Below are positions 14,748-29,079 of a DNA stretch of 35,250 nt, piece after piece (position 1 is the stretch's first letter; every line of letters starts with the position of its first letter). The stretch is taken from the NCBI GenBank assembly GCA_902762955.1, contig CACWQH010000025.1, positions 38,969 to 74,218 on the forward strand. The letters are read 5' to 3'. This DNA comes from an uncultured Lachnospiraceae bacterium (GTDB lineage Bacteria > Bacillota > Clostridia > Lachnospirales > Lachnospiraceae). The translations under genes and the position numbers were made by a program. Under the pieces are notes generated by a model, which searched no databases, was not told the origin of the DNA, and worked only from the letters and a program-made list of their open reading frames with translations.

Positions 14748-16481
14748 TTATACAGGAAATGAATCTGCAACACATAATGCTCCCCAGCCAATCCGTTCAT
14801 TTGGAATAACATTTGCGCCGGGGAGTTTTTTTGCGCCTTTTATAAGATAACTTTTAAGCTTTTCACCATACAAAAACAAATCATTGCCATCCGTTATCCC
14901 GTATTCCATAAGAAGTGCGGCCGCAGAGCTTACAAAAGGTGCAGCAAAGGAGGTTCCTGACACAAATGTTGTTCCGCCGTCCAATGCTGCTGTATTTATA
15001 TCAACTCCGGGGGCTACTATATCAGGCTTTATATCTCCTGATACACTGTATCCCCTTCCCGAAAACGCAGCATAATTTAGATTATTTTGATTATATGCCC
15101 CTACTGTTACTGCTCTTCTTGCTGTTCCGGGTATTGTTAAGGTTGTGAACTCTTTTGGTCTTATAAATTTCAGTTCAGAGCTTGTGGATGCGGCTACAGG
15201 AAGCCATACATTAACTCTTCCATCAAATATGGATTTTGGATTAAACTTTATCTTCCACACACCTTCATTAATAAAACTATCATTGGGAATTATGCTGATA
15301 AAGGTTTCCTGATTAATATTTATCGGAGAAGGAACACCGTTTAAGACAAATATATTCATATCATTTACAATAAACCTCATGGTTTCCTGATAATTATTAA
15401 ACGGTCCAAGCTCTGCACCGGATGGCGTAACAAGAAATATATCAATTACATCCGAGAACTTTCTCCATATCTGGATATTGATACTTCTTTCAAACCTGCT
15501 TACAAAAAATTCCTCCTGATACCAGGATTTTTCCATAATATTAAATTCAGTATGTCTTGACGTTGCCCCTTCATTTCCCGTTCCGGTAACAATTGATATT
15601 TTAGAAATATCAGCAACAGAATCGATATATCGTTCAAGTATCGCTCCCGAATCATGATCTCCATAGTTATTGCCGAAGCTTAAATTTATGACAAGCGGAA
15701 GCGAAAGCTCCATGGATTTTTTTATAGCATATGTAATTCCAAGCATTATTGATGTGGTTCTCGAAAAGCTGCTCTCAAAGTTTTCCCGTAGCTTTACAAT
15801 CAAAAGCTTTGCCTTCGGTGCAAGTCTTTTGATTATACCGGCAACGGCGGTTCCGTGTCCACTTGAATCAAAGGCTATATTTTTATTATTATCAGCTATG
15901 AGCATATCAATATCTTCTTTTTCGTAAATGCTTCCTATTTTCAGATTAAACGGCGGATTACCGGGCAGATTCTGATCCCATATCTCATATATTTCAGTTT
16001 TATTATCATTATTCAAAAAAACAGGATGCAGATAATTTATACCGGTGTCTATAACCGCTATCAGCACTCCTTCTCCTTCGTAATCATTTATTCCATAATT
16101 AAGTAAATTAAAGCAGGAAATATTGTATCCGGCGGGCATAAGCGATACATACGCAAGGCTGTCCATATTGCCTGCTTCAAAATCGCTTTCAAAATAAACC
16201 TCTTTTGGTTTTTCAATAAATATAATCTGTGGATTATTGGATAAAGCATCAATATTCTCCTGTTTTATACGAATAATCGCATATCCGTTAAATAATTCTA
16301 TATAAGAAAATGCCACCTCTTCATTAATCTCATCAAGCATACCAAAATATCTGATAATAAGCTCCCATTCATCTTCAACCGGATAAAAGCCTTCATTCAA
16401 GCCAAGCGCATTTTCTCTTTCAGCATACGGAACACTTAAGGACAGATTAAGCTCCGTGCTAAGCTTTGTTTTATCAATCAT
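14748..16481 (-). CDS. Subtilisin-like S8 serine protease (clostridial Csp-type)
   Basis: A 577-residue S8 protease. The catalytic triad is intact: D145 (IAVIDTGINY), H209 (SSGHGTAVAGI) and S511 (SGTSFAAPFV), with oxyanion N303 in TGNEG. There is a propeptide-like N-terminal domain (about 35-100), and an insertion of about 130 residues (315-450) between the Asn and Ser motifs resembles the jelly-roll insertion of clostridial Csp proteases. I see no signal peptide, again like the Csp group, which act inside spores or the mother cell. The divergent neighbour is spoIIGA. A germination or sporulation role is inference; a general cytoplasmic protease is the alternative. The AAGGA site is 9 bases before the ATG. 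Confidence 0.9.
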   Translation of the reverse strand: MIDKTKLSTELNLSLSVPYAERENALGLNEGFYPVEDEWELIIRYFGMLDEINEEVAFSYIELFNGYAIIRIKQENIDALSNNPQIIFIEKPKEVYFESDFEAGNMDSLAYVSLMPAGYNISCFNLLNYGINDYEGEGVLIAVIDTGINYLHPVFLNNDNKTEIYEIWDQNLPGNPPFNLKIGSIYEKEDIDMLIADNNKNIAFDSSGHGTAVAGIIKRLAPKAKLLIVKLRENFESSFSRTTSIMLGITYAIKKSMELSLPLVINLSFGNNYGDHDSGAILERYIDSVADISKISIVTGTGNEGATSRHTEFNIMEKSWYQEEFFVSRFERSINIQIWRKFSDVIDIFLVTPSGAELGPFNNYQETMRFIVNDMNIFVLNGVPSPININQETFISIIPNDSFINEGVWKIKFNPKSIFDGRVNVWLPVAASTSSELKFIRPKEFTTLTIPGTARRAVTVGAYNQNNLNYAAFSGRGYSVSGDIKPDIVAPGVDINTAALDGGTTFVSGTSFAAPFVSSAAALLMEYGITDGNDLFLYGEKLKSYLIKGAKKLPGANVIPNERIGWGALCVADSFPV

Positions 16482-16512
16482 AATATAAGTTCCTTCATGA
16501 TGAACCAGGTAT

Positions 16513-16587
16513 TGTCAAAAAATGTCGTTAATAATTTAAAATCCGCTACAGATTACGACGTGTTTTTCATAATGAAAACACTATAAT
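16513..16587 (+). promoter_or_regulatory. Candidate Spo0A-controlled spoIIG promoter
   Basis: A -10 TATAAT lies at 16582-16587, with no good -35 at normal spacing. Two 0A-box-like heptamers, TGTCAAA (16513-16519) and TGTCGTT (16523-16529), are 10 bases apart, one helical turn, and an inverted near-match TACGACG is at 16554-16560, about -40 to -34. The B. subtilis spoIIG promoter also has tandem 0A boxes and atypical -35 spacing. Boxes here have 1-2 mismatches to TGTCGAA, so this is inference supported by gene identity. Confidence 0.5.
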
Positions 16588-16614
16588 TTCATATAAGAAA
16601 TGACGGAGGGGTTA

Positions 16615-17451
16615 ATGAAATACATAGTCTATGCAGATGTAATCTTTTTTTGGAACTTTGTCATCAATATATGTGTGCTTACAGTAACTCACAAGCTGCT
16701 ACACACACAATTCATTTTAAAAAGGCTGATCCTATGGTCATTAATAACCGGTGCACTAACGGATGCAGTATATATCATATTTTTTGACAATATACTTCTT
16801 CCTTTATTTTATGCACTAAGCTACATTTTTATGACCATTATGTATTTTAAAACCACCTCTATACGCGACCTGTTAGGAAAAAATACAGCGTTAATCATTT
16901 CAATGTTAATAGTTTACGGAATTATAAATTTATTTAAAGGAGGTGAAGCTCTATCCTTTCTTCATTTACTAATATCACTTACGACTGGTACCTTGCTTTT
17001 TTGTTTAGCGGCAAGAAATGTAAGCAAAAGGCTTTCAGGAAAATATCATAAATTAAGTTTATGTATGTCCGGAAAGAAAGTACTTGTAACGGGTTATCAG
17101 GATACCGGCAACACTCTATCGGATCCTTATACCAATAAACCGGTGATGATATTAGATTACAGAATAATGAAAAATTTTATCGATACTAAAACCTATGTAC
17201 TTATAACAAATTATCAAAAAACAGGATATATGGATTATGAAGCCTTTAAACAGTTGTCTCATATAAAAATATATCCTGTTCCTTATTCAACCATTAGCTC
17301 GTCATGTGATTTTATGCCTGTATTTCTTATGGATTCGGTTTACTTTCCTGATGAAAACAAGGTATTAAAGCATATAGCCTTTGGTATTAGCAGATTCAAA
17401 TTAAAAAACGATTTTCAGGTTCTTTTAAATGAAAATCTGAAAGCCGTATAG
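16615..17451 (+). CDS. spoIIGA: Sigma-E processing peptidase SpoIIGA
   Basis: Membrane aspartic protease that removes the pro-sequence of sigma-E in the mother cell after a signal from the forespore (SpoIIR). Of 278 residues, the N-terminal half has about five transmembrane helices (2-26, 37-57, 61-78, 92-106, 117-134) and the C-terminal half is a cytoplasmic retropepsin-like domain with the catalytic motif DTGNTLSDP (D163). The ATG at 16615 follows GGAGGGG; the upstream ATG at 16600 precedes that site and is rejected. sigE starts 15 bases after its stop, the conserved spoIIGA-sigE order. Confidence 0.95.
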   Translation: MKYIVYADVIFFWNFVINICVLTVTHKLLHTQFILKRLILWSLITGALTDAVYIIFFDNILLPLFYALSYIFMTIMYFKTTSIRDLLGKNTALIISMLIVYGIINLFKGGEALSFLHLLISLTTGTLLFCLAARNVSKRLSGKYHKLSLCMSGKKVLVTGYQDTGNTLSDPYTNKPVMILDYRIMKNFIDTKTYVLITNYQKTGYMDYEAFKQLSHIKIYPVPYSTISSSCDFMPVFLMDSVYFPDENKVLKHIAFGISRFKLKNDFQVLLNENLKAV

Positions 17452-17466
17452 AGAGGAGTTATTCAA

Positions 17467-18198
17467 ATGATTAGTGTAGTTAGCAATAATAAATTCAGCT
17501 TTAATATAAAAAGCGTTGCTAATTTTATATTGTTTCCCAAAAATGAAGTTCATTATATAGGCGGTGCTGAAATTCTCCCTCCCCCTCTTTCACCTGAGGA
17601 TGAAGCCTGCCTTTTGGAACAGCTTGCAAACGATGAGGATGTTGAAGTAAAGAAAACTCTTATAGAGCACAACTTAAGACTGGTTGTATATATTGCCAAA
17701 AAATTTGATAATACCGGTGTCGGTGTTGAGGATTTAATATCTATCGGAACAATCGGTCTTATTAAAGCCATAAACACCTTCAAAACAGACAAAAACATAA
17801 AGCTTGCCACATACGCATCAAGATGTATTGAAAACGAGATTCTTATGCATTTAAGACGCAGTCAGAGAACAAAGGCAGAGGTATCCATAGATGAACCCTT
17901 AAATGTGGACTGGGATGGAAATGAACTCCTTTTATCAGATATATTGGGAACGGATGATGATGTTATATACAAAGACATCGAGGATGAAGTAGACAAAAAC
18001 CTTCTTGAGCAGGCACTTGACATACTATCTGACCGTGAACGAACCATAATTGAATTAAGATTCGGGATAGGTCGTAATGATGAAGAAATGACTCAAAAGG
18101 AGGTAGCCGACCTACTCGGCATCTCCCAATCCTACATTTCACGTCTCGAAAAGAAAATCATACGCCGCCTAAAGAAAGAAATTATACGTCTTGGATAA
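17467..18198 (+). CDS. sigE: Mother-cell sporulation sigma factor pro-sigma-E
   Basis: RNA polymerase sigma factor driving early mother-cell sporulation genes. The 243 residues closely follow B. subtilis sigma-E, including [41 protein letters not shown] (region 2), [19 protein letters not shown] and region 4 ELRFGIG...[20 protein letters not shown] pro-sequence of about 28 residues precedes HYIGG (29-33), where SpoIIGA is expected to cut. The AGAGGAG site is well placed. In many spore formers sigG follows; here the next gene is trkH on the opposite strand, with element B in between, so sigG must lie elsewhere if present. Confidence 0.97.
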
Positions 18199-18457: not shown

Positions 18458-19909
18458 CTATGCAACTTTTTTCTTACGCTTCCATACGGATGGTGAAAAA
18501 AGTAAGAGGATTGGGAAAAGCTCGAGTCTTCCTGCCAGCATATCAAACATGAATACATATTTGGAAAATGCCGAGTAACAGGAGAAGTTACATGTAGGAC
18601 CAACCTTGCTAAGTCCCGGACCTATATTGTTTATTGTTGCGGCAACTGCCGTAAAGTTCGAGGTCATATCCTTATTTTCGTATGAAATAAGAAGAAGTGA
18701 TACCGAAAAAATAATTATATATGTCATGAAGTATACATTTATTGAACGAAGTGTCTCATGACCTATAACCTTATCTTCTATCTTGATTTTCTTGACACTC
18801 TTAGGGAAAAGGAAGGATACAATTTCCTTTCTCACTGTTTTTGCCATAACTATAAAACGTGAAACCTTTATACCACCACCCGTACTGCCTGCACAGGCTC
18901 CTATAAACATCAGCATAACAAGTATGGTCTTTGAAAGTGCCGGCCAGGTGTCAAAATCCGCCGTTCCGTAACCGGTTGTTGTTATGATAGAACCGACCTG
19001 GAAAAATGAGTGTCTAATAGTCGCACCTAAAGAACCGATTTTATCATATATATTTATTGCGATAGTTGTAACCGCAACAAAAATTATTATGAAATAAACC
19101 CTTACCTCTTCTATCTTAAAGGCCTGCTTTATCTTTCCGGATATAAGAAGAAAATAAAAGGTAAAATTGACTCCGAACAGCACCATAAATATACCGATTA
19201 CCCACTGCTGGTAAACCGTACAGCTCATAATACTGTCATTCCATATGCTTAATCCGCCTGTTCCTGCTGTACCAAAGGAAATCGTAAGCGCCTCAAAAGG
19301 ATTCATACCGCCAAAGAGTAAAAGTACAACCTCTATAACGGTCATTACAAAATATATGGCATACAGATAAAAGGCTGTATCCCTTACCTTTGGAACCAGC
19401 TTACCAACAGATGGTCCCGGGCTTTCTGCCTTCATAAGATTCATATTGGAACCGCCTGCCATAGGTAAAATAGCAAGTAAGAATACCAATACTCCCATTC
19501 CACCTATCCAGTGTGTGAAGCTTCTCCAGAAAAGACTTGCATGTGAAAGTGCTTCTACATCGGATAAAATTGTTGAGCCTGTTGTAGTAAAGCCTGAAAC
19601 CGTTTCAAACAAAGCATCTGTAAAATGAGGGATATCATCATTAAGTATAAATGGCAAAGCACCAAGTACAGAGAGAATTATCCAGCTTAATGCCGTTGTC
19701 ACAAAGCCTTCCTTAAGATAGAATTTCATATCTTTAGGCTTATGCATCACTATAATTGTTCCTACAAGTGCGGCAGCCACTGCGACATACAAAAATCCCA
19801 ATCCCTCTTTTTCTCCATATATAGCAGCCACAAGACAAGGCAGCATCATACATGCTGCCTCAATATCCATAATCCATCCTAAAACATATATAACTACGCT
19901 GTAATTCAT
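18458..19909 (-). CDS. trkH: Trk potassium uptake channel subunit TrkH
   Basis: Potassium-translocating membrane subunit, 483 residues with about ten hydrophobic helices. The four pore loops of the SKT family are visible: SGFTTTGSTIL (about 104-114), FGTAGTGGLSIW (about 211-222), SIITTTGYGTADF and TINNIGPGLSKVGP, each giving one filter strand. It starts 27 bases after the trkA stop with a GAGGAT site, so TrkA and TrkH are made together and should form one complex. It is the last gene of the minus-strand unit; its stop sits against element B. Confidence 0.95.
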   Translation of the reverse strand: MNYSVVIYVLGWIMDIEAACMMLPCLVAAIYGEKEGLGFLYVAVAAALVGTIIVMHKPKDMKFYLKEGFVTTALSWIILSVLGALPFILNDDIPHFTDALFETVSGFTTTGSTILSDVEALSHASLFWRSFTHWIGGMGVLVFLLAILPMAGGSNMNLMKAESPGPSVGKLVPKVRDTAFYLYAIYFVMTVIEVVLLLFGGMNPFEALTISFGTAGTGGLSIWNDSIMSCTVYQQWVIGIFMVLFGVNFTFYFLLISGKIKQAFKIEEVRVYFIIIFVAVTTIAINIYDKIGSLGATIRHSFFQVGSIITTTGYGTADFDTWPALSKTILVMLMFIGACAGSTGGGIKVSRFIVMAKTVRKEIVSFLFPKSVKKIKIEDKVIGHETLRSINVYFMTYIIIFSVSLLLISYENKDMTSNFTAVAATINNIGPGLSKVGPTCNFSCYSAFSKYVFMFDMLAGRLELFPILLLFSPSVWKRKKKVA

Positions 19910-19936: not shown

Positions 19937-21319
19937 TTATTTTAGAATATCCTTTAAATCCTTAAATCCGGTATGAGTCGTAACAATGACAACCTTATCA
20001 TTTTCCTGTATTACATCATCACCTTTAGGGATAATAATCTTTCCGTTTCTGTTGATACATGCAACCAGAAGGTTATCCTTTAACTTTAGCTCCATGAGAG
20101 CCTTACCAACTACAGGAGAATTCTTCTCGGTATTAAATTCTATAGCTTCTGCCTTATTGTCAAATATATGATAAAGCATCTCTATGTTACTTCCGATACC
20201 ATTTTGGGTAGCACGAACATGACCGATGATTGTTTCAGAGATCATATATCTTGGATAAAGTATACTGCCCATGTCAAGATTGTCTATAACATCATGGAAG
20301 GAGCTTCTCTTTATCTTGGTAATTACCTTAGCTGCAGTAAATTGTCTGGCAAATAAGGTAATAAGTATATTTTCTTCATCCAGACCTGTAAGAGGAACCA
20401 CAGAATCCGCTTCCTCTATACCGGCTTCTCGAAGTACAGACTCATCCGTACCATCACCACAGATAATAAGTGCCTTTGGTATAAGTGCGCTTAATTCTTC
20501 GCATCTTTTCATATTGATTTCAACAATCTTAACATCAATATTCATCTCGGTAAGCTGCTTTGCAAGATAGTAAGAGGATTTACCTCCTCCGATTATCATA
20601 CAGTTTTTAACCTGATGCGTATCGATGTCAATCTTTTTAAAGAAATTCTGTGTATTGATAGGTGTTGCGATGAAAGTAATATAATCCTGTCCTCTTAAAA
20701 CAAAAGAACCATCCGGTATAACAAGCTCTCCGCTTCTTTCCACACCACAGACAAGAAGCTGTGAATTATAATTTCTTATATCGGAAATATGTGATCCATC
20801 CAATACATTTCCATCGGGAAGCTTGAATTTTATAAGCTCTGCATGTCCCTTTGTAAATGCATTAATCTCCTCCGCCATAGGAAGACGAAGTAACCTCGCA
20901 ATCTCTCTTGCAGTTTCAAGTTCAGGATTAATTATAAGAGAGATGCCAAGCTTTGATCTTAAATATGCAAGCTCATCACTGTAATCAGGATTTCTGACTC
21001 TGGCAATTGTTGCACAATGTCCAACCTGATTAGCTATAGTACAGCAAAGCATATTTAATTCGTCTGATTCCGTAACAGCTATAAGTACATCCGTTTCATT
21101 GATGCCTGCATCAAGTAAAACTCTATAGCTGAAGCCGTTTCCGGCTATTCCCATTACGTCATAGGTTTCGGAAACACGATCAACCAAATCGCTGTTTGTG
21201 TCAATAACAGTTATATCATGCTTTTCCTGGACAAGCTTCTCAACCAGAGTATTTCCTACTTTTCCGCATCCAACGATAATTATTTTTAATCCTCTGTTTT
21301 TCTTAAATGGATTTTCCAT
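19937..21319 (-). CDS. trkA: Trk system regulatory subunit TrkA
   Basis: Cytoplasmic gating ring of the potassium system. The 460 residues contain two RCK units: Rossmann folds with IIIVGCGKVGNTLVEKL (13-29) and NCMIIGGGKSSYYLAKQL (about 235-252), each followed by a TrkA-C domain, the second ending in KGDDVIQENDKVVIVT. The double-RCK form is the true TrkA type rather than KtrA/KtrC. NAD(H) or another nucleotide is the expected ligand. It lies 45 bases after the 72-residue gene and 27 before trkH. Confidence 0.95.
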   Translation of the reverse strand: MENPFKKNRGLKIIIVGCGKVGNTLVEKLVQEKHDITVIDTNSDLVDRVSETYDVMGIAGNGFSYRVLLDAGINETDVLIAVTESDELNMLCCTIANQVGHCATIARVRNPDYSDELAYLRSKLGISLIINPELETAREIARLLRLPMAEEINAFTKGHAELIKFKLPDGNVLDGSHISDIRNYNSQLLVCGVERSGELVIPDGSFVLRGQDYITFIATPINTQNFFKKIDIDTHQVKNCMIIGGGKSSYYLAKQLTEMNIDVKIVEINMKRCEELSALIPKALIICGDGTDESVLREAGIEEADSVVPLTGLDEENILITLFARQFTAAKVITKIKRSSFHDVIDNLDMGSILYPRYMISETIIGHVRATQNGIGSNIEMLYHIFDNKAEAIEFNTEKNSPVVGKALMELKLKDNLLVACINRNGKIIIPKGDDVIQENDKVVIVTTHTGFKDLKDILK

Positions 21320-21364: not shown

Positions 21365-21583
21365 TTATAACATCTTTTTTAAAGAACCGAGGGCATCTGC
21401 AGCCTTACCTGCACCGAGCTTTGCCTGAACACCTGAAACTACCTTGTCAAGCATACCATCCGGTATATCAACACCTGCAACCTTTTCGATTGCCTTTTCA
21501 GGATTAGACTTAAACTCCTTTTCAAAATCCTTATCATTTTTTACCTTGTCAACGATTTTAGTTACCTGATCCTTAATATCCAT
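21365..21583 (-). CDS. 72-residue protein resembling a Nif11/NHLP-type leader peptide
   Basis: A small soluble protein rich in Lys, Asp and Val with no Cys. The pattern FEKEFKSNPEKAIEKVAGVD followed by IPDGMLDKVV recalls the F--L--DP--A----G--LP-G consensus of nitrile-hydratase-like (NHLP) and Nif11 leader peptides. No modification enzyme or peptidase-type exporter is next to it, so a RiPP precursor is doubtful. The tail KLGAGKAADALGSLKKML could form an amphipathic helix. The ATG at 21583 follows GGAGGAG; the ATG at 21598 precedes that site. It lies 40 bases after the tubulin-like gene, so the two are probably co-transcribed. Function unknown. Confidence 0.8.
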   Translation of the reverse strand: MDIKDQVTKIVDKVKNDKDFEKEFKSNPEKAIEKVAGVDIPDGMLDKVVSGVQAKLGAGKAADALGSLKKML

Positions 21584-21623
21584 TATTATCTCCTCCATAT
21601 TTTAAAATTTTTATTAATGAACA

Positions 21624-24149
21624 TCAGCATAAATCCGGATATGCAAACATATCCTTATTTACCTCATCTGTATGAAGTCCAAAATACGAAGCCCTGTCAA
21701 CCGCATTGTAAGCTTCCTGAAGTTCCTTTGCACATTCAAGCAAGGATAAAGGAACTCCGACAAGAATATCGTCAATTGATATTTCGATTTCACCATGGTT
21801 AAATGCAATAGTATCTTCAGGTGTATTGTAAGGCTCACCTATAAGTATATTTTTAACCGCTTCCGAAAAATGCGGCATTGCAGCAGGAAGTGAGATGTAT
21901 CGCTTATTGATAACTTTTTCCTCCGAGCCTTCCTTGAGTACGCACATTTTCTTCTTTTCGGTTTTTTCACTTAAGCCTTCAACAAATACTCTTGCAGCAT
22001 TGTTCATAATATCATCACGCTTTTCATTTGAAGCGGAAACAAACATAATATTGGTTTCCTGAAGCGTAGGCTTATTGTCTGCAAATGCAACAGATATAAG
22101 CTTTTCAGGAGCATATACACCAACACTTACAAATATATTCTTATATATTCTTTCCATCATATCCTTAACAGGAACCGGACGAGAATTATCAATATCAGCC
22201 TCATGCTCAACCATGAGCTCAATTATGCCCTTTCTTAACTCATCAATTCTTGCATCTGTTACATAATCAGACGGTAAAAATTCATGTCTTGCAGCACCCT
22301 TGAGTGTATAATTGATTACCTTTCCGCCTCTCTTTGAAAGGTCTTCAACCGCATTCTTTAAATCCTCACCGAACTGACCATAGATATCGTTAAGTCTTTC
22401 TGATTTCTGTCTTAAAATTCTGATAATATCACCAAATAAATCCTGGTCACTTATACCGTCAATAATCATATTTCTCTCTGTAGCAAGAGTTTCCTTTATG
22501 CATGCATCATAATAACCGTTTTCTGTCTCACGCTTTGCAGATGGAAATGTAAAGAATCTCTTTGACACAATGTCTCTGATTGATTCTATGATACGGCTAA
22601 ATTCGCCGGTTGGCTGGTACGAACCAAGCTTTTGTTCAAGCTTTCTAATCTCAGCTATTATTCCTCCGTCCATATCTCTTCCAGCAAAGCCTGCTGAACC
22701 GATTAAATTAATTGTAAGAAACGGACCATACTCCCTCATATACTTATTAAGCAGTCTGTCGATATCGCTAGATACCTTATTTTTCAACTGTTTTATGATA
22801 CTTGGAATATTCTTTTCCACATCAGAAAGCTGTCTTGGCATGGAAGTTCTTAAGGTATCCTGTTTTTTCTTGATGGACTTATAATCCGGTTTCATAAGCT
22901 GATTGATATTGACGAGTCCTTTAACATCAAGGCTTACAGGTTCACCCGGCTTTCCGTCTAAAAATTGATTTAACTCAAATAAAGTATTCTTTAAATCATT
23001 TGCAGCAATTTCATCTATATTATCAAGGGTATGAAGTCTCTTATTTGCCTCATTAAAGACCTCATATTCACAGATATTTTCAATTTCCTTAATAGGCACC
23101 TTATAGTCAGACTCATTAAATATCTTATAATATCCTGAACCCTCTCTGTCAAAGAAGGCATCTCTTAAAAGCTTTCTGTCTTCTACAGCCTTTTCGTTTC
23201 CGATGAATTTATTCTTTGAAAGCATGGATATAAAATATGCAACGTCACTGCATATTACTCCGTCAGGAAGATAACCCTGATCATCCTGCTTTCCGGATAT
23301 AATCATGCAGGAATCAAATACATTTTCCTTCATTGAAAGTCTGTGAGTGGTGCTCTCAAAGGTATAAGCCTCATTTCTGTTTGCAATACGCATAAGATAG
23401 TCAACTTCTTTTAATGTTGCACAGCCGTTTGCATTGAGCAGACTCTTAAGCTCAAGATTATCTGATATAAATCTGTCCGCAAATAAAACATCCGGTGTAA
23501 GAAGACATGCACCGATACGATAATTTGAAAGTCTCTTTGACTTACCAAATGCTCTTATATTATATGCCAAATCGGTAAGTATACCACTTCCTGTTCCACC
23601 TGCGACACTTGATACAATGATTATATCAAGCTTGCCGCTTTCAGATTTGTCATATATCTCTTCGATTTTTTCAAACAAAAGAATTCTTATATCCTCGTAT
23701 GCATTTGAGAACATAAGACGGCCTATCTGACGATTGCCCTTTGCCCCGTCAATACCGATATTCATATCAGGAAAATCACTCTTCATCCAGTTTGCAAGAT
23801 TAGGATGAACCGGATTATTATTTATACCCTTTGAAAGAATTGTTTCAAGATTAGGTCTGTAAATACTCATAACCTCAAGAGCATTAAGGCCTATACCTTC
23901 CTTACTGTCTTCAATGGTAGCCTGCATAGCCTGAATATCAGAATCTATATAAAGCAGATTGATATTGTCTTCAGGTGTAACATCCTCGCTGATCATCCCC
24001 TTAATACTTGTAAGAACCTTGCAGCCAATACCACCCAAGCCGATGATAAGCAAGTCCTTGTTAAAGGTTTGTTCTTCATCATCCTTACCAAATATCCTGA
24101 TATCCTTTAACTTGGCAAATTCTTCCTTTTGCGTATCAATTAAAATCAT
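21624..24149 (-). CDS. Tubulin/FtsZ-superfamily protein (Tubulin_2-like)
   Basis: An 841-residue protein whose N-terminal 300 residues carry the tubulin/FtsZ GTPase pattern: a T1-type loop LLIIGLGGIGCKVL (33-46), LLYIDSD (65-71), GAKGNRQIGR (135-144), and the T4 signature AGGTGSG (183-189) in place of GGGTGSG. LNANGCATLKEVDYL near 238-252 resembles the nucleotide-contacting helix H7. The remaining 500 residues have no recognised domain; 420-480 is charged and helical, possibly coiled coil. It is far longer than FtsZ (about 350-400) and is not the cell-division protein. Related proteins are predicted to polymerise or remodel membranes; the role is unknown. GGGAGGAG precedes the ATG and overlaps the region just after the prfC stop. 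Confidence 0.8.
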   Translation of the reverse strand: MILIDTQKEEFAKLKDIRIFGKDDEEQTFNKDLLIIGLGGIGCKVLTSIKGMISEDVTPEDNINLLYIDSDIQAMQATIEDSKEGIGLNALEVMSIYRPNLETILSKGINNNPVHPNLANWMKSDFPDMNIGIDGAKGNRQIGRLMFSNAYEDIRILLFEKIEEIYDKSESGKLDIIIVSSVAGGTGSGILTDLAYNIRAFGKSKRLSNYRIGACLLTPDVLFADRFISDNLELKSLLNANGCATLKEVDYLMRIANRNEAYTFESTTHRLSMKENVFDSCMIISGKQDDQGYLPDGVICSDVAYFISMLSKNKFIGNEKAVEDRKLLRDAFFDREGSGYYKIFNESDYKVPIKEIENICEYEVFNEANKRLHTLDNIDEIAANDLKNTLFELNQFLDGKPGEPVSLDVKGLVNINQLMKPDYKSIKKKQDTLRTSMPRQLSDVEKNIPSIIKQLKNKVSSDIDRLLNKYMREYGPFLTINLIGSAGFAGRDMDGGIIAEIRKLEQKLGSYQPTGEFSRIIESIRDIVSKRFFTFPSAKRETENGYYDACIKETLATERNMIIDGISDQDLFGDIIRILRQKSERLNDIYGQFGEDLKNAVEDLSKRGGKVINYTLKGAARHEFLPSDYVTDARIDELRKGIIELMVEHEADIDNSRPVPVKDMMERIYKNIFVSVGVYAPEKLISVAFADNKPTLQETNIMFVSASNEKRDDIMNNAARVFVEGLSEKTEKKKMCVLKEGSEEKVINKRYISLPAAMPHFSEAVKNILIGEPYNTPEDTIAFNHGEIEISIDDILVGVPLSLLECAKELQEAYNAVDRASYFGLHTDEVNKDMFAYPDLC

Positions 24150-24165: not shown

Positions 24166-25761
24166 TTAGTTCTTGCGGAACTCTTCCAGTTCTAACCCCT
24201 CGTTATGCTCTAATAAAAGTCGAATCGACCACTCATTTGCGAATAGCAAAAGCGGATTATCCTTCATATCCTTAACTCTCTTGCAATCACTTATTCTGCT
24301 GATTTTATTAAGGTCTGTTGTAGGATCTTTAACCCACCTTATATAATTATACGGTAGCGGCTCAAGTCTTATGTCGCAGCCGTACTCATTTTCCAATCTA
24401 TATTTTAACACATCAAACTGAAGAACGCCAACAACTCCTACAATTATTTCAGACATTCCAAGCGTATAATCCTGAAACATCTGTATAGCGCCCTCCTGGG
24501 CTATCTGTGTAACCCCTTTCATAAACTGTTTACGTTTCATGGAATCAAGATGCACAAGTCTTGCAAAATGCTCCGGTGCAAAGGTAGGTATACCCTCATA
24601 TTCAAATTTATTACCAGGTGTACAAATCGTATCCCCTATCGAAAATATGCCCGGATCAAATACACCGATTACATCACCGGCATATGCCTCATTTATAACC
24701 TTTCTGTCCTGTGCCATTATCTGCTGCGGCTGGGAAAGACGCATCTTTCTTCCGCTTTGCACATGATAAACTTCCTTATCTGCATCAAATTTACCGGATG
24801 AAATTCTCATAAAGGCAATTCTGTCATGATGTGCTTTGTTCATATTGGCCTGGATTTTAAATATAAATCCGGAGAAGACATCATTAATCGGTTCTATCAT
24901 GCCCTCATTTGACATCCTCGGCAGAGGTGATTTAGTCATCTTAAGGAAATGCTCAAGAAAGGTTTGAACTCCAAAGGTTGTAAGTGCAGAACCGAAAAAT
25001 ACCGGTGTCAGCTCACCCTTATCTACAAGCTCCTGATTAAACTCATCACTTGCACCATCCAAAAGCTCCATCTCTTCTATGAACTGACTGTATAGCTCTT
25101 CACCAACCTCTTCCTTTAAAGCGGCATCGTCTATATCATAGTCAGTTTCCTCTGCACCCTTTGCTCCGCCTACAGAAATTGCACGGAACATAGAAACCTT
25201 TTTCGTATCTCTGTCATACACACCTTTAAATCTCTTACCCGAACCGATAGGCCAGTTAATCGGGCAGGTTCTGATGCCAAGAACGGTTTCAATATCATCC
25301 AAAAGTTCAAAGGAATCTCTGGCTTCCAAATCCATTTTATTAATAAATGTAAATATAGGAATATGTCTCATAACACAGACCTTAAAAAGCTTAATTGTCT
25401 GTGCCTCAACACCCTTTGAAGCATCTATAACCATGACTGCCGAATCAGCAGCCATAAGTGTACGATAAGTATCCTCGGAGAAGTCCTGATGTCCGGGAGT
25501 ATCAAGTATATTTATGCAATATCCATCATAGTTAAACTGTAATACTGAAGATGTTACGGATATACCTCTTTCCTTTTCAATCTCCATCCAGTCTGAGACA
25601 GCGTACTTGGAATTAGCCTTACCCTTTACGGAGCCTGCAGTGTTAATAGCACCGCCATACAATAAAAACTTCTCTGTAAGGGTTGTCTTACCCGCATCAG
25701 GATGCGAGATAATTGCAAAGGTTCTTCGCTTCTCTATCTCCTGCTTAAACTTCTCGTCCAT
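24166..25761 (-). CDS. prfC: Peptide chain release factor 3
   Basis: Translational GTPase that recycles RF1/RF2 after termination. The 531 residues match the family length. G1 is SHPDAGKTTLTEK (about 19-31), switch II DTPGHQDFSEDTYR, G4 NKMDLEARD, and the C-terminal domain contains VVGVLQFDVLKYRLENEYG, characteristic of RF3. The second of two adjacent ATGs (25761) is chosen because GGAGG is 5 bases upstream; a TTG at 25773 is less likely. It follows carB by 30 bases and precedes the tubulin-like gene by 16. Confidence 0.96.
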   Translation of the reverse strand: MDEKFKQEIEKRRTFAIISHPDAGKTTLTEKFLLYGGAINTAGSVKGKANSKYAVSDWMEIEKERGISVTSSVLQFNYDGYCINILDTPGHQDFSEDTYRTLMAADSAVMVIDASKGVEAQTIKLFKVCVMRHIPIFTFINKMDLEARDSFELLDDIETVLGIRTCPINWPIGSGKRFKGVYDRDTKKVSMFRAISVGGAKGAEETDYDIDDAALKEEVGEELYSQFIEEMELLDGASDEFNQELVDKGELTPVFFGSALTTFGVQTFLEHFLKMTKSPLPRMSNEGMIEPINDVFSGFIFKIQANMNKAHHDRIAFMRISSGKFDADKEVYHVQSGRKMRLSQPQQIMAQDRKVINEAYAGDVIGVFDPGIFSIGDTICTPGNKFEYEGIPTFAPEHFARLVHLDSMKRKQFMKGVTQIAQEGAIQMFQDYTLGMSEIIVGVVGVLQFDVLKYRLENEYGCDIRLEPLPYNYIRWVKDPTTDLNKISRISDCKRVKDMKDNPLLLFANEWSIRLLLEHNEGLELEEFRKN

Positions 25762-25791
25762 CATGTCCTCCAAGAAATACGATTAAATCTT

Positions 25792-28700
25792 TTACTTATC
25801 TGTTATCTCACTATGCCAAGCCTGTAAGGATTTAATGCTGTTATTTTCATCCTTGTGAGCCTTTACATATGCGATACCTTCAGCTGTAGCCTTAGCTGCG
25901 GCAATTGTTGTCATATAAGGAACTCTGCCCTTAATTGCAGCCTTTCTTAAATAGCTGTCATCATATATGCTGTCCTTACCTACAGGAGAATTGATTATAA
26001 GATCGATATCTCCGTTGGTAATCATATCAAGCATATTTGGTCTGCCCTCGTGAAGCTTCTTAACAACCGTAGCCTTTACTCCGGCAGCAGTTATAATATC
26101 ATAGGTTCCACTGGTAGCAAGGATATTGAAGCCTGATGCTTCAAAGCTCTTTGCAACCTCTACAACCTCATTTTTATCCTTTCTGTTTACAGATATAAGA
26201 ACTGTTCCCTCTAAAGGAAGCTTGGACTGTACTGCCTCCTGTGATTTGAAGAAGGCTTCACCATAATGCTCTGATATACCGAGAACCTCACCTGTTGAAC
26301 GCATTTCAGGTCCGAGTACAGGGTCAACCTCCTGGAACATATTAAATGGGAATGCTGCTTCCTTAACACCGAAATATGGTATGTGCTGCTCCTTAAGTGA
26401 AGGTACAGGTGATGGTCTTCCTGTAAGCTCTGATGTAATAATATCAGTTGCTAGAGGAACCATACGGATATTACATACCTTTGATACAAGAGGTACTGTA
26501 CGGGATGCTCTCGGGTTAGCCTCAAGCACATAAACCTTTCCGTTCTCGATTGCATACTGCATATTCATAAGACCCTTTACATGCATTTCTTCTGCAATCT
26601 TTCTTGTATATTCCTTAATAGTCTTTACATTTTCTTCAGATATATGTAATGAAGGTATGATACATGCCGAGTCACCGGAGTGAACACCCGCAAGCTCGAT
26701 ATGCTCCATAACGGCAGGAACAAATGCATGCTCACCGTCACTTATCGCATCTGCCTCGCACTCAAGAGCATGGTTAAGGAAACGGTCGATAAGAATAGGT
26801 CTGTCAGGTGTTACACCAACAGCCGCATTCATATACTCGGTCATGCTCTCATCATCGTATACGACCTCCATACCACGTCCTCCAAGTACATAAGAAGGAC
26901 GAACCATAACAGGATATCCAATCTTATTGGCGATACTGATTGCCTCATCAACGGTTGTTGCCATACCTGATTCAGGCATAGGAATTTCAAGCTTATCCAT
27001 CATAGCTCTGAATAAATCTCTATCTTCGGCAAGATCGATAACCGCAGGTGCGGTACCGAGAATCTTGACACCGTTCTTCTCCAAGTCGGCGGCTAAATTA
27101 AGTGGAGTCTGTCCACCGAACTGTGCGATTACGCCAACCGGCTTTTCCTTCTTATATATGCTAAGTACATCCTCAAGGGTAAGCGGTTCAAAATAAAGCT
27201 TATCTGAGGTATCATAGTCTGTTGAAACTGTTTCAGGGTTACAGTTTACAATTATTGTTTCAAAACCAAGCTGCTTCAATGCCTTTGCAGCATGTACACA
27301 ACAATAGTCAAACTCAATACCCTGACCTATACGGTTAGGACCACCACCGAGAATCATAATCTTTGGCTTTTCGGTATTAATAGGATTCTTGTCCTCTCCG
27401 TTATATGTAGAATAATAATATGCACTGTTTTCGGTACCGCTTACGTGTACGCCCTCCCAGTTTTCTTCAACACCGAGTTCAATACGCTTATTACGTATAT
27501 CCTCTTCCGGTATAGAAAGAAGCTGGCTTAAATACTTATCAGAAAATCCATCCTTCTTAGCAGTGATGAGCATATCATCAGGAAGCATAGAACCCTTGTG
27601 TTTTAAGATTTCCTCTTCCTCTTCAACAAGCTCTTTCATCTGCTCGATAAAATAAGTCTTAACTTTAGTTATATCAAATATCTCTTCAACTGTTGCACCC
27701 TTACGAAGAGCCTCATACATTACAAAATGTCTCTCACTTGAAGGCGTTATAAGAAGCTTAAGCAATTCTTCCTTTGAAAGCGAATCAAAGTTCTTGGCAT
27801 GACCAAGACCGTAACGACCTGTCTCCAGGCTTCGGATAGCCTTTTGGAATGCCTCCTTGTAGGTCTTACCGATACTCATTACTTCACCTACGGCACGCAT
27901 CTGGGTACCAAGCTTATCCTCAACATTCTTGAACTTTTCAAAGGCCCATCTTGCAAACTTGATAACTACATAGTCACCGTCCGGCTTATACTTATCAAGA
28001 GTTCCGTACTTACCGCATGGAATATCCTTAAGTGTAAGTCCTGTTGCAAGCATTGCCGATACAAGTGCAATAGGGAAACCTGTTGCCTTTGAAGCAAGTG
28101 CTGAAGAACGTGAAGTTCTTGGGTTAATCTCTATAACAATGATTCTGTCAGTTACAGGATCATGAGCAAACTGTACATTTGTACCACCTATAACCTGAAC
28201 CTTTTCAACAATCTTATATGCCTGCTCCTGCAATTTCTTCTGACATTCCTCGGAAATTGTAAGCATAGGAGCCGAACAGAAGGAATCACCGGTATGTACT
28301 CCGAGAGGATCTATATTTTCGATAAAGCATACAGTTATAATGTTGTTATCAGCATCTCTTACAACCTCTAACTCGAGCTCCTCCCAGCCTAAAATTGACT
28401 CTTCTACAAGCACCTGTCCAACCAGACTTGCCTGAAGTCCTCTGGCACAGACAACCTTTAACTCCTCTTTATTATATACGAGACCACCGCCGGCGCCTCC
28501 CATAGTGTAGGCAGGTCTTAAAACAACCGGATATCCAAGCTTATCTGCTATAGCAAGTGCCTCATCCACAGAATAAGCGACCTCACTTCTGGCCATCTCG
28601 ATACCTATGCTGTCCATGGTCTTCTTGAACTCTATACGGTCCTCACCACGTTCGATAGCATCTACCTGAACACCTATAACCTTGACATTGTACTTATCAA

Positions 28701-29022
28701 GCACACCTGCATTGTTAAGCTCGGCACATAAATTAAGTCCTGACTGACCACCAAGATTTGGCAGTAAGGCATCAGGACGCTCTTTGGCGATAATCTGCTC
28801 CAATCTATTGACATTTAAAGGCTCAATGTAAGTAACGTCAGCTATCTCCGGATCTGTCATGATAGTTGCAGGGTTAGAATTAACGAGAACTATCTCATAA
28901 CCGAGCTTGCGAAGTGCCTTACATGCCTGTGTTCCGGAATAGTCAAACTCACACGCCTGACCGATAATGATAGGACCGGAACCAATAATTAATACTTTGT
29001 TGATATCAGTTCTTTTTGGCAT
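25792..29022 (-). CDS. carB: Carbamoyl-phosphate synthase large subunit
   Basis: Makes carbamoyl phosphate from bicarbonate, ATP and ammonia for pyrimidine and arginine synthesis. The 1076-residue protein has the two duplicated synthetase halves, each opening with a matching motif (VLIIGSGPIIIGQACEFDYS near 10 and ILGGGPNRIGQGIEFDYCC near 560), two ATP-grasp domains, and a C-terminal allosteric MGS-like domain (VLISVNRKDKNEVVEVAKSF onward, about 930). The ATG at 29022 has AAGGAG 8 bases upstream and gives the normal N-terminus MPKRTDINKVLIIG; the longer frame from 29070 adds an unlikely extension. The glutaminase subunit carA, usually adjacent, is not here. Confidence 0.97.
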   Translation of the reverse strand: MPKRTDINKVLIIGSGPIIIGQACEFDYSGTQACKALRKLGYEIVLVNSNPATIMTDPEIADVTYIEPLNVNRLEQIIAKERPDALLPNLGGQSGLNLCAELNNAGVLDKYNVKVIGVQVDAIERGEDRIEFKKTMDSIGIEMARSEVAYSVDEALAIADKLGYPVVLRPAYTMGGAGGGLVYNKEELKVVCARGLQASLVGQVLVEESILGWEELELEVVRDADNNIITVCFIENIDPLGVHTGDSFCSAPMLTISEECQKKLQEQAYKIVEKVQVIGGTNVQFAHDPVTDRIIVIEINPRTSRSSALASKATGFPIALVSAMLATGLTLKDIPCGKYGTLDKYKPDGDYVVIKFARWAFEKFKNVEDKLGTQMRAVGEVMSIGKTYKEAFQKAIRSLETGRYGLGHAKNFDSLSKEELLKLLITPSSERHFVMYEALRKGATVEEIFDITKVKTYFIEQMKELVEEEEEILKHKGSMLPDDMLITAKKDGFSDKYLSQLLSIPEEDIRNKRIELGVEENWEGVHVSGTENSAYYYSTYNGEDKNPINTEKPKIMILGGGPNRIGQGIEFDYCCVHAAKALKQLGFETIIVNCNPETVSTDYDTSDKLYFEPLTLEDVLSIYKKEKPVGVIAQFGGQTPLNLAADLEKNGVKILGTAPAVIDLAEDRDLFRAMMDKLEIPMPESGMATTVDEAISIANKIGYPVMVRPSYVLGGRGMEVVYDDESMTEYMNAAVGVTPDRPILIDRFLNHALECEADAISDGEHAFVPAVMEHIELAGVHSGDSACIIPSLHISEENVKTIKEYTRKIAEEMHVKGLMNMQYAIENGKVYVLEANPRASRTVPLVSKVCNIRMVPLATDIITSELTGRPSPVPSLKEQHIPYFGVKEAAFPFNMFQEVDPVLGPEMRSTGEVLGISEHYGEAFFKSQEAVQSKLPLEGTVLISVNRKDKNEVVEVAKSFEASGFNILATSGTYDIITAAGVKATVVKKLHEGRPNMLDMITNGDIDLIINSPVGKDSIYDDSYLRKAAIKGRVPYMTTIAAAKATAEGIAYVKAHKDENNSIKSLQAWHSEITDK

Positions 29023-29079
29023 AGCTTTAATCTCCTTTTCCCAGTGCATTTTAATTTTATCTCTTATCACATTCGTTTT

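Follow-up and report, generated by a model that had tools for sequence, protein, structure and literature searches.

A stand-alone tubulin-like gene of the Tubulin_2 (FtsZl1) family, near-universal in two genera of Lachnospiraceae

The locus and its tubulin-like gene

The window, that is, the whole stretch of 35,250 nucleotides analysed here, carries the genes carB-prfC-tubulin-72-aa gene-trkA-trkH, in this order, on its minus strand. The tubulin gene (21624..24149, minus strand), identified from its open reading frame and its PF13809 match as a gene of the Tubulin_2 (FtsZl1) type, encodes a protein of 841 aa. The gene for RF3, prfC (24166..25773, minus strand), lies 16 bases upstream of it and is preceded by carB (25792..29070, minus strand), which owes its name to the original prediction and was tracked across relatives as a sequence cluster. 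Downstream follow the CDS of the 72-aa protein (21365..21583, minus strand), trkA (19937..21319, minus strand) and trkH (18458..19909, minus strand). Elsewhere in the window (14748-18198), a gene for a subtilase with a CspB prodomain adjoins SpoIIGA and a sigma factor, which is a sporulation neighbourhood.

The 841-aa protein matched the Pfam family Tubulin_2 (PF13809) with an E-value of 1.4e-73 (248.6 bits, cut-off 27), and the domain covers residues 34-368 (23046..24050, minus strand). Its second, weak match was to Tubulin (PF00091; residues 148-199, E 0.0015, 19.3 bits, cut-off 33), and FtsZ_C (PF12327) was absent from its Pfam list. A conventional FtsZ is encoded by a separate gene in the same genome (G000:C5). 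With a domain match this far above the cut-off, the protein is, judged by its sequence, a member of the Tubulin_2 (FtsZl1) family and not FtsZ, as originally predicted. The T1 and T4 tubulin motifs named in that prediction are present as well: GLGGIG at residues 37-42 (24024..24041, minus strand) and GGTGSG at residues 184-189 (23583..23600, minus strand). In the region C-terminal to the Tubulin_2 domain (residues 369-841; 21627..23045, minus strand), no Pfam family above cut-off was found and no transmembrane segment was suggested by hydropathy, the highest 19-residue mean being 1.5.

Among the stand-alone sequences counted, T1 reads GLGGxG in 55/55; the copy from the genus g272, which is outside these 55, has ALGGVG. 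At T4, 44 of the 55 fit the pattern with GGTGSG, 3 have GGTSGG and 8 are off-pattern. The three sequences with GGTSGG instead of GGTGSG come from three species (G006, G025 and G035; loci L081, L085 and L083). The dN/dS ratio was 0.03-0.06 for the tubulin gene (4 pairs) and 0.03-0.04 for the 72-aa gene (the 3 of 4 pairs in which dS was computable); both ratios are rough, because dS was 0.65-1.5. The substitution patterns indicate that purifying selection acts on both genes, and that it is strong for the tubulin.

A Tubulin_2 profile built from 67 sequences, both stand-alone and other, and cut to the first 430 residues of the window protein aligned with FtsZ over residues 27-278 with a probability of 92% and an E-value of 6e-7 (one comparison only), a stretch that by eye covers T1 to T5. 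When the 14-sequence alignment of stand-alone proteins alone was compared with FtsZ by hhalign, the probability was 1.4%. No confident placement was obtained in the profile alignment with FtsZ for T6-H7 and T7, which are needed for polymerisation in FtsZ and tubulin. We considered D302 in the motif ICSDVAYF as T7: the residue is conserved, yet the alignments that place it there are non-significant or of low confidence, and the assignment is not claimed. Two AlphaFold models of the protein, built from input alignments of 7 and 8 sequences, were of low confidence (mean pLDDT 37.9 and 44.2); long helices were predicted in the C-terminal part at pLDDT below 50. The best 50 Foldseek rows for each model were mostly Rossmann short-chain dehydrogenases and included no tubulin or FtsZ; with models of this confidence, which are unusable, the result has little weight and speaks neither for nor against a tubulin fold.

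The small downstream gene and the wider gene neighbourhood

The small open reading frame was called at 21365-21598 (minus strand) with 77 aa. Because the alignment with relatives begins at the inner ATG at 21583 and GGAGGAG (21590..21596, minus strand), the likely ribosome-binding site, precedes it, we place the start of the protein at this ATG, which gives 72 aa; its conservation shows that the frame is a real gene. Starting from 21583, it follows the tubulin gene, so the small protein is its immediate neighbour, as had been described. Its N-terminal stretch resembles NHLP leaders: the match to TIGR03793 scored 32.5 bits, the curated cut-off being 50.9, and 11 of 17 relatives matched a leader of this type at E 0.001 or better, below the model cut-offs. 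The 72-aa protein differs from NHLP leader peptides (TIGR03793) in its C-terminus, which by eye is without a Cys/Ser/Thr-rich core peptide, and no RiPP-modifying enzyme was recognised among the 23 window proteins scanned with Pfam. In another genome, two tandem matches to the 72-aa family lie in one open frame of 145 aa (G519:C14:58403-58834).

The survey of homologue neighbourhoods spoke against the conserved association of the two genes that the original prediction had proposed. Searched with a 17-sequence profile, 18 of the 37 genomes of the genus contain the 72-aa protein and 19 lack it. Counting direct adjacency, an intact copy immediately follows the tubulin gene in 5/36 loci, namely the window and four close relatives, where the two are co-directional; in a sixth close relative, G019, the copy is broken by a stop (A2 is without this copy). 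In G005 and G009 an SNF-type transporter gene separates it from the tubulin, which makes it the second gene downstream; there, an antisense ORF that overlaps it was called in its place. In G033 it lies at a contig end, apart from the tubulin contig, with this transporter gene and rnhA-acc-fab genes next to it. The other nine bearers in the genus have it elsewhere, in three further contexts, which makes five kinds of context across the 18 genomes. In G004 and G013, where the tubulin gene is followed immediately by trkA, the genome has no copy of the 72-aa gene.

In the family sample, the 72-aa protein was detected in 26/200 genomes including the window's own (25/199 others), with some scores weak. 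By genome handles, all 25 other bearers belong to the 396-genome sample searched for Tubulin_2, and among them a Tubulin_2 match above cut-off occurs in G507 alone, where it lies on a different contig from the 72-aa homologue; G519 has a match below cut-off. Homologues of the 72-aa protein occur in 24 genera of the family that have no Tubulin_2 match above cut-off. On the basis of the genus and family surveys, with 5/36 loci intact and adjacent, we rejected the pairing: the 72-aa protein is mostly a coincidental neighbour, and its association with the tubulin is local. The original prediction was to fall if homologues never co-occurred with the small protein; taken literally this is not the case, since close relatives have the pair.

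On the upstream side, prfC lies directly before the tubulin gene in 29/36 loci of the genus and also in the genera g359 and g272. The carB-prfC-trkAH unit is present in the order originally described, and it is local, as trkA follows the tubulin in 8/36 loci of the genus. In 20/36 loci, accD/accA are located at most five genes downstream of the tubulin, and wherever acc genes are present (21 stretches), the RNase H1 cluster accompanies them in 19 cases. A hydrophobic-looking ORF of ~79 aa recurs between rnhA and accD in the opposite orientation (L079:6835-7074 and other loci of the genus); the one member scanned had no Pfam match. In a second genus, where 21 of the 39 bearers were covered, the 21 loci showed various unrelated neighbours of housekeeping type and no constant one. 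By appearance, the neighbours of the tubulin gene (prfC, acc-fab, trkAH, dtd, lepA) are ordinary housekeeping genes.

Distribution, partner genes and descent

The tubulin was found in 36 of the 37 genomes of the genus, and the single genome without it, G002, is 79% complete. The second, large genus has it in 39/41 genomes, and in 20/20 of those of high quality (at least 90% complete, at most 5% contamination); in g359 and g272, each represented by one genome, it is present in 1/1 and 1/1. We conclude that the stand-alone ~840-aa tubulin is a core gene, near-universal in two genera. Across the family sample Tubulin_2 is patchy, with a match above cut-off in 20/396 genomes, 5 of which have the single-gene form of ~800-850 aa. 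Compared with the ~840 aa of the stand-alone proteins, 23 of 26 sequences from other loci are 921-1437 aa long.

At those other Tubulin_2 loci, a gene of the vWA cluster or of a second module is the direct neighbour of the tubulin gene in 20/22 cases (11 and 9, respectively), a figure that is descriptive because these 22 loci also served to define the partner clusters. The recurrent clusters of these loci, represented by 66 query proteins, comprise vWA, DO-GTPase and GAP1 (where members were scanned) and the second module without Pfam matches. L137 and L140 have neither kind of direct neighbour, and the Tubulin_2 match of L140 is fragmentary. In G046, two vWA genes and a DO-GTPase gene form an operon beside Tubulin_2, and in G165, which belongs to another family of the phylum, the Tubulin_2 operon contains vWA, DO-GTPase and GAP1-N2. 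L129 and L130 carry a tandem array of three Tubulin_2 genes, near which genes of the vWA and DO-GTPase clusters are found, and L137 is another solitary Tubulin_2 gene, very divergent (955 aa) and located beside a PLD-domain gene.

No such partners were found beside the stand-alone tubulin. Among the 23 window proteins, Pfam scans listed no vWA domain (8 proteins were scanned at E<=1 and 15 at E<=1e-5, where weak matches are missed), in line with the earlier remark that no vWA-type gene lies near the tubulin. The 66 partner proteins gave no blastp match at E 0.001 when compared with the 59 stretches around stand-alone genes, which comprise 782 proteins and include five stretches shorter than 10 kb; thus, by blastp, a vWA-type operon occurs with the stand-alone tubulin in 0/59 stretches, and no DO-GTPase was matched next to the tubulin in any of the 59. 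GAP1-N2 was found in 0/61 genomes of the bearer genera (60 with the tubulin; 22 of the 41 second-genus genomes covered) and in 3/4 positive controls. Because 32/37 genomes of the genus have a vWA protein elsewhere and the four such proteins examined match operonic vWA over part of their length, a partner acting in trans is conceivable. These four share 24-35% identity with the operonic vWA over 20-33% of their length, and given this short coverage we set vWA in trans aside as a partner of the tubulin. The vWA proteins of ~565-595 aa from four genomes have a lipoprotein-like start by eye. Neither G021 nor G026, two tubulin bearers with a completeness rating of 100%, gave a PF00092 match.

In an FtsZ tree of 28 of the 30 chosen genomes (G478 and G361 gave no match; the sequences begin at an inner Met, without T1), 13 tubulin bearers from 3 of the 4 genera formed one clade (98/94), with the non-bearer G357 as its sister. 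The FtsZ sequences of these 13 bearers and of G357 (L200 and other FtsZ loci) share a very long stem of 2.03 changes per column. The Tubulin_2 tree comprised 72 of 81 sequences: nine without the cropping motif were left out, three of them stand-alone, and the g272 copy had been omitted beforehand, its T4 being off-pattern. The 20 rows that are not stand-alone were all on one side of a branch (100/99) in this tree, which was rooted at the midpoint and carries a long-branch warning, the stem of the stand-alone clade measuring 2.64 changes per column. The genus and the second genus were not separate clades in it, and G027 grouped with three second-genus rows (100/99), while its FtsZ grouped with its own genus. 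Since these two placements disagree, at least one exchange, involving G027, is likely; since the bearers form one clade on the FtsZ tree, a single gain in their common ancestor is the simplest reading. Descent was thus likely mostly vertical, with at least one exchange.

A recent origin from a mobile element was rejected: the tubulin had no match among 50,697 phage records and no relative in viral contigs, and its three plasmid matches (Thermus/Meiothermus-type) were weak, with 28-29% identity over 22-28% of the protein. A defence label was likewise dropped, as PADLOC gave no match for the tubulin.

Interpretation and comparison with known systems

The explanation that we prefer builds on the family membership of the protein, its near-universal presence in two genera, the lack of adjacent partners, the single clade of bearers in the FtsZ tree and purifying selection. 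According to it, this Tubulin_2 member has been a stand-alone core gene since the ancestor of at least four genera of Lachnospiraceae and codes for a soluble, GTP-binding scaffold or filament with a housekeeping role; as a whole, we think that this has about an even chance of being correct. An FtsZl1 member would have turned into a core gene standing on its own in an ancestor shared by at least four genera of the family, and the vWA, DO-GTPase and GAP1 genes that accompany its relatives would have been lost from this lineage or never present in it. Its product would be a soluble, cytosolic nucleotide-binding protein, whose N-terminal domain may bind GTP via loops T1-T5 and self-assemble, and whose C-terminal region may supply what the partners supply elsewhere. 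A single gene product would then make the scaffold or filament, with a housekeeping role such as cell-envelope organisation. It is possible, and here we are more tentative, that an anaerobic gut-type lineage took the tubulin of a GTPase/vWA system of several genes and domesticated it as an autonomous cytoskeletal element, encoded by a single gene, which would shape or organise each of its cells alongside FtsZ.

Self-assembly is the point at which a first alternative departs from this explanation. The protein could lack the T7 catalytic contact and hence not polymerise; it would then act as a nucleotide-dependent switch or scaffold, a monomer or dimer that recruits other proteins. The unplaced T6-H7 and T7, the long C-terminal region without a known domain and the altered T4 in three sequences are consistent with such a switch. 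However, all characterised members of the superfamily form filaments according to the authors of PMC2875224, in the part of that paper drawn on here, and T1 is GLGGxG in 55/55 sequences; we consider the non-polymerising form unlikely.

The tubulin could also belong to a DO-GTPase/vWA system, of membrane or conflict type, with the genes for the remaining components located elsewhere in the genome. This would agree with the vWA proteins found elsewhere in 32/37 genomes, with the inclusion of tubulin genes in firmicute GAP1-N2 systems, as described in the consulted part of Kaur et al. 2020 (PMC7159879), and with the operon of G046, which, together with one other row, comes closest to the stand-alone clade in a long-branched tree. 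It is at odds with the 0/61 genomes for GAP1-N2, with the two genomes rated fully complete (G021 and G026) that have the tubulin and no PF00092 match, and with a near-universal presence where the family at large is patchy, and appears rather improbable.

A functional tie to translation through prfC (RF3) would explain why this gene is the upstream neighbour in three genera (29/36 loci of the genus, g359 and g272), and in the second genus the D-Tyr-tRNA deacylase cluster lies within a few genes of the tubulin in 7/21 loci, four of them with the lepA cluster. Yet prfC is not directly upstream in 7/36 loci of the genus and adjoins the tubulin in none of the 21 second-genus loci, where the cluster labelled prfC (two loci) proved to be LepA in the member scanned, so that we regard this tie as very doubtful. 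That the 72-aa protein works together with the tubulin as a pair, as first proposed from their co-directional adjacency in the window and four close relatives and compatible with the second position downstream in G005 and G009, is scarcely credible given the absence of the small protein from 19/37 genomes, its five kinds of context in the other 18, its occurrence in 24 genera of the family without Tubulin_2 above cut-off and the broken copy in G019.

Returning to the preferred explanation, a stand-alone Tubulin_2 core gene, the protein can be compared with three known systems. With cell-division FtsZ it shares T1 to T5, which align by profile; it differs in having no FtsZ_C match, and the true FtsZ is encoded by a separate gene. 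With the GAP1-N2/DO-GTPase systems the stand-alone form has the tubulin-family component in common, whereas none of the other components was found in the 59 stretches.

The closest comparison is with the FtsZl1 family itself (Pfam Tubulin_2, PF13809), defined by Makarova and Koonin in 2010 together with its vWA gene context (PMC2875224). In the portion of that paper cited here, a vWA operon is ascribed to the majority of members and not to all, T6-H7 and T7 are likewise left unplaced, and the role of the family is a prediction, which it has been since 2010; in the part of PMC9871819 that we cite, Tubulin_2 proteins were set aside as divergent. Our literature search, with most subscription journals outside its coverage, found no experimental study of FtsZl1/Tubulin_2, which bears out the description of these proteins as poorly characterised, and no paper on tubulin-like proteins in Lachnospiraceae. 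Because the stand-alone form has become fixed across whole genera without partner genes encoded next to it, the role of FtsZl1 is reduced to a one-gene question, testable by a single deletion or with a single purified protein. The 841-aa protein and FtsZl1 have in common T1, T4, a long C-terminal part, a co-existing normal FtsZ and unidentifiable T6-H7 and T7. In contrast to FtsZl1, no vWA, GTPase, kinase or OmpA-type gene was seen beside the tubulin, and the stand-alone form is shorter (~840 aa) and fixed in genera, whereas the family at large is patchy. What stands out here is a single-gene form of a known family, Tubulin_2, without adjacent partner genes and fixed in whole genera.
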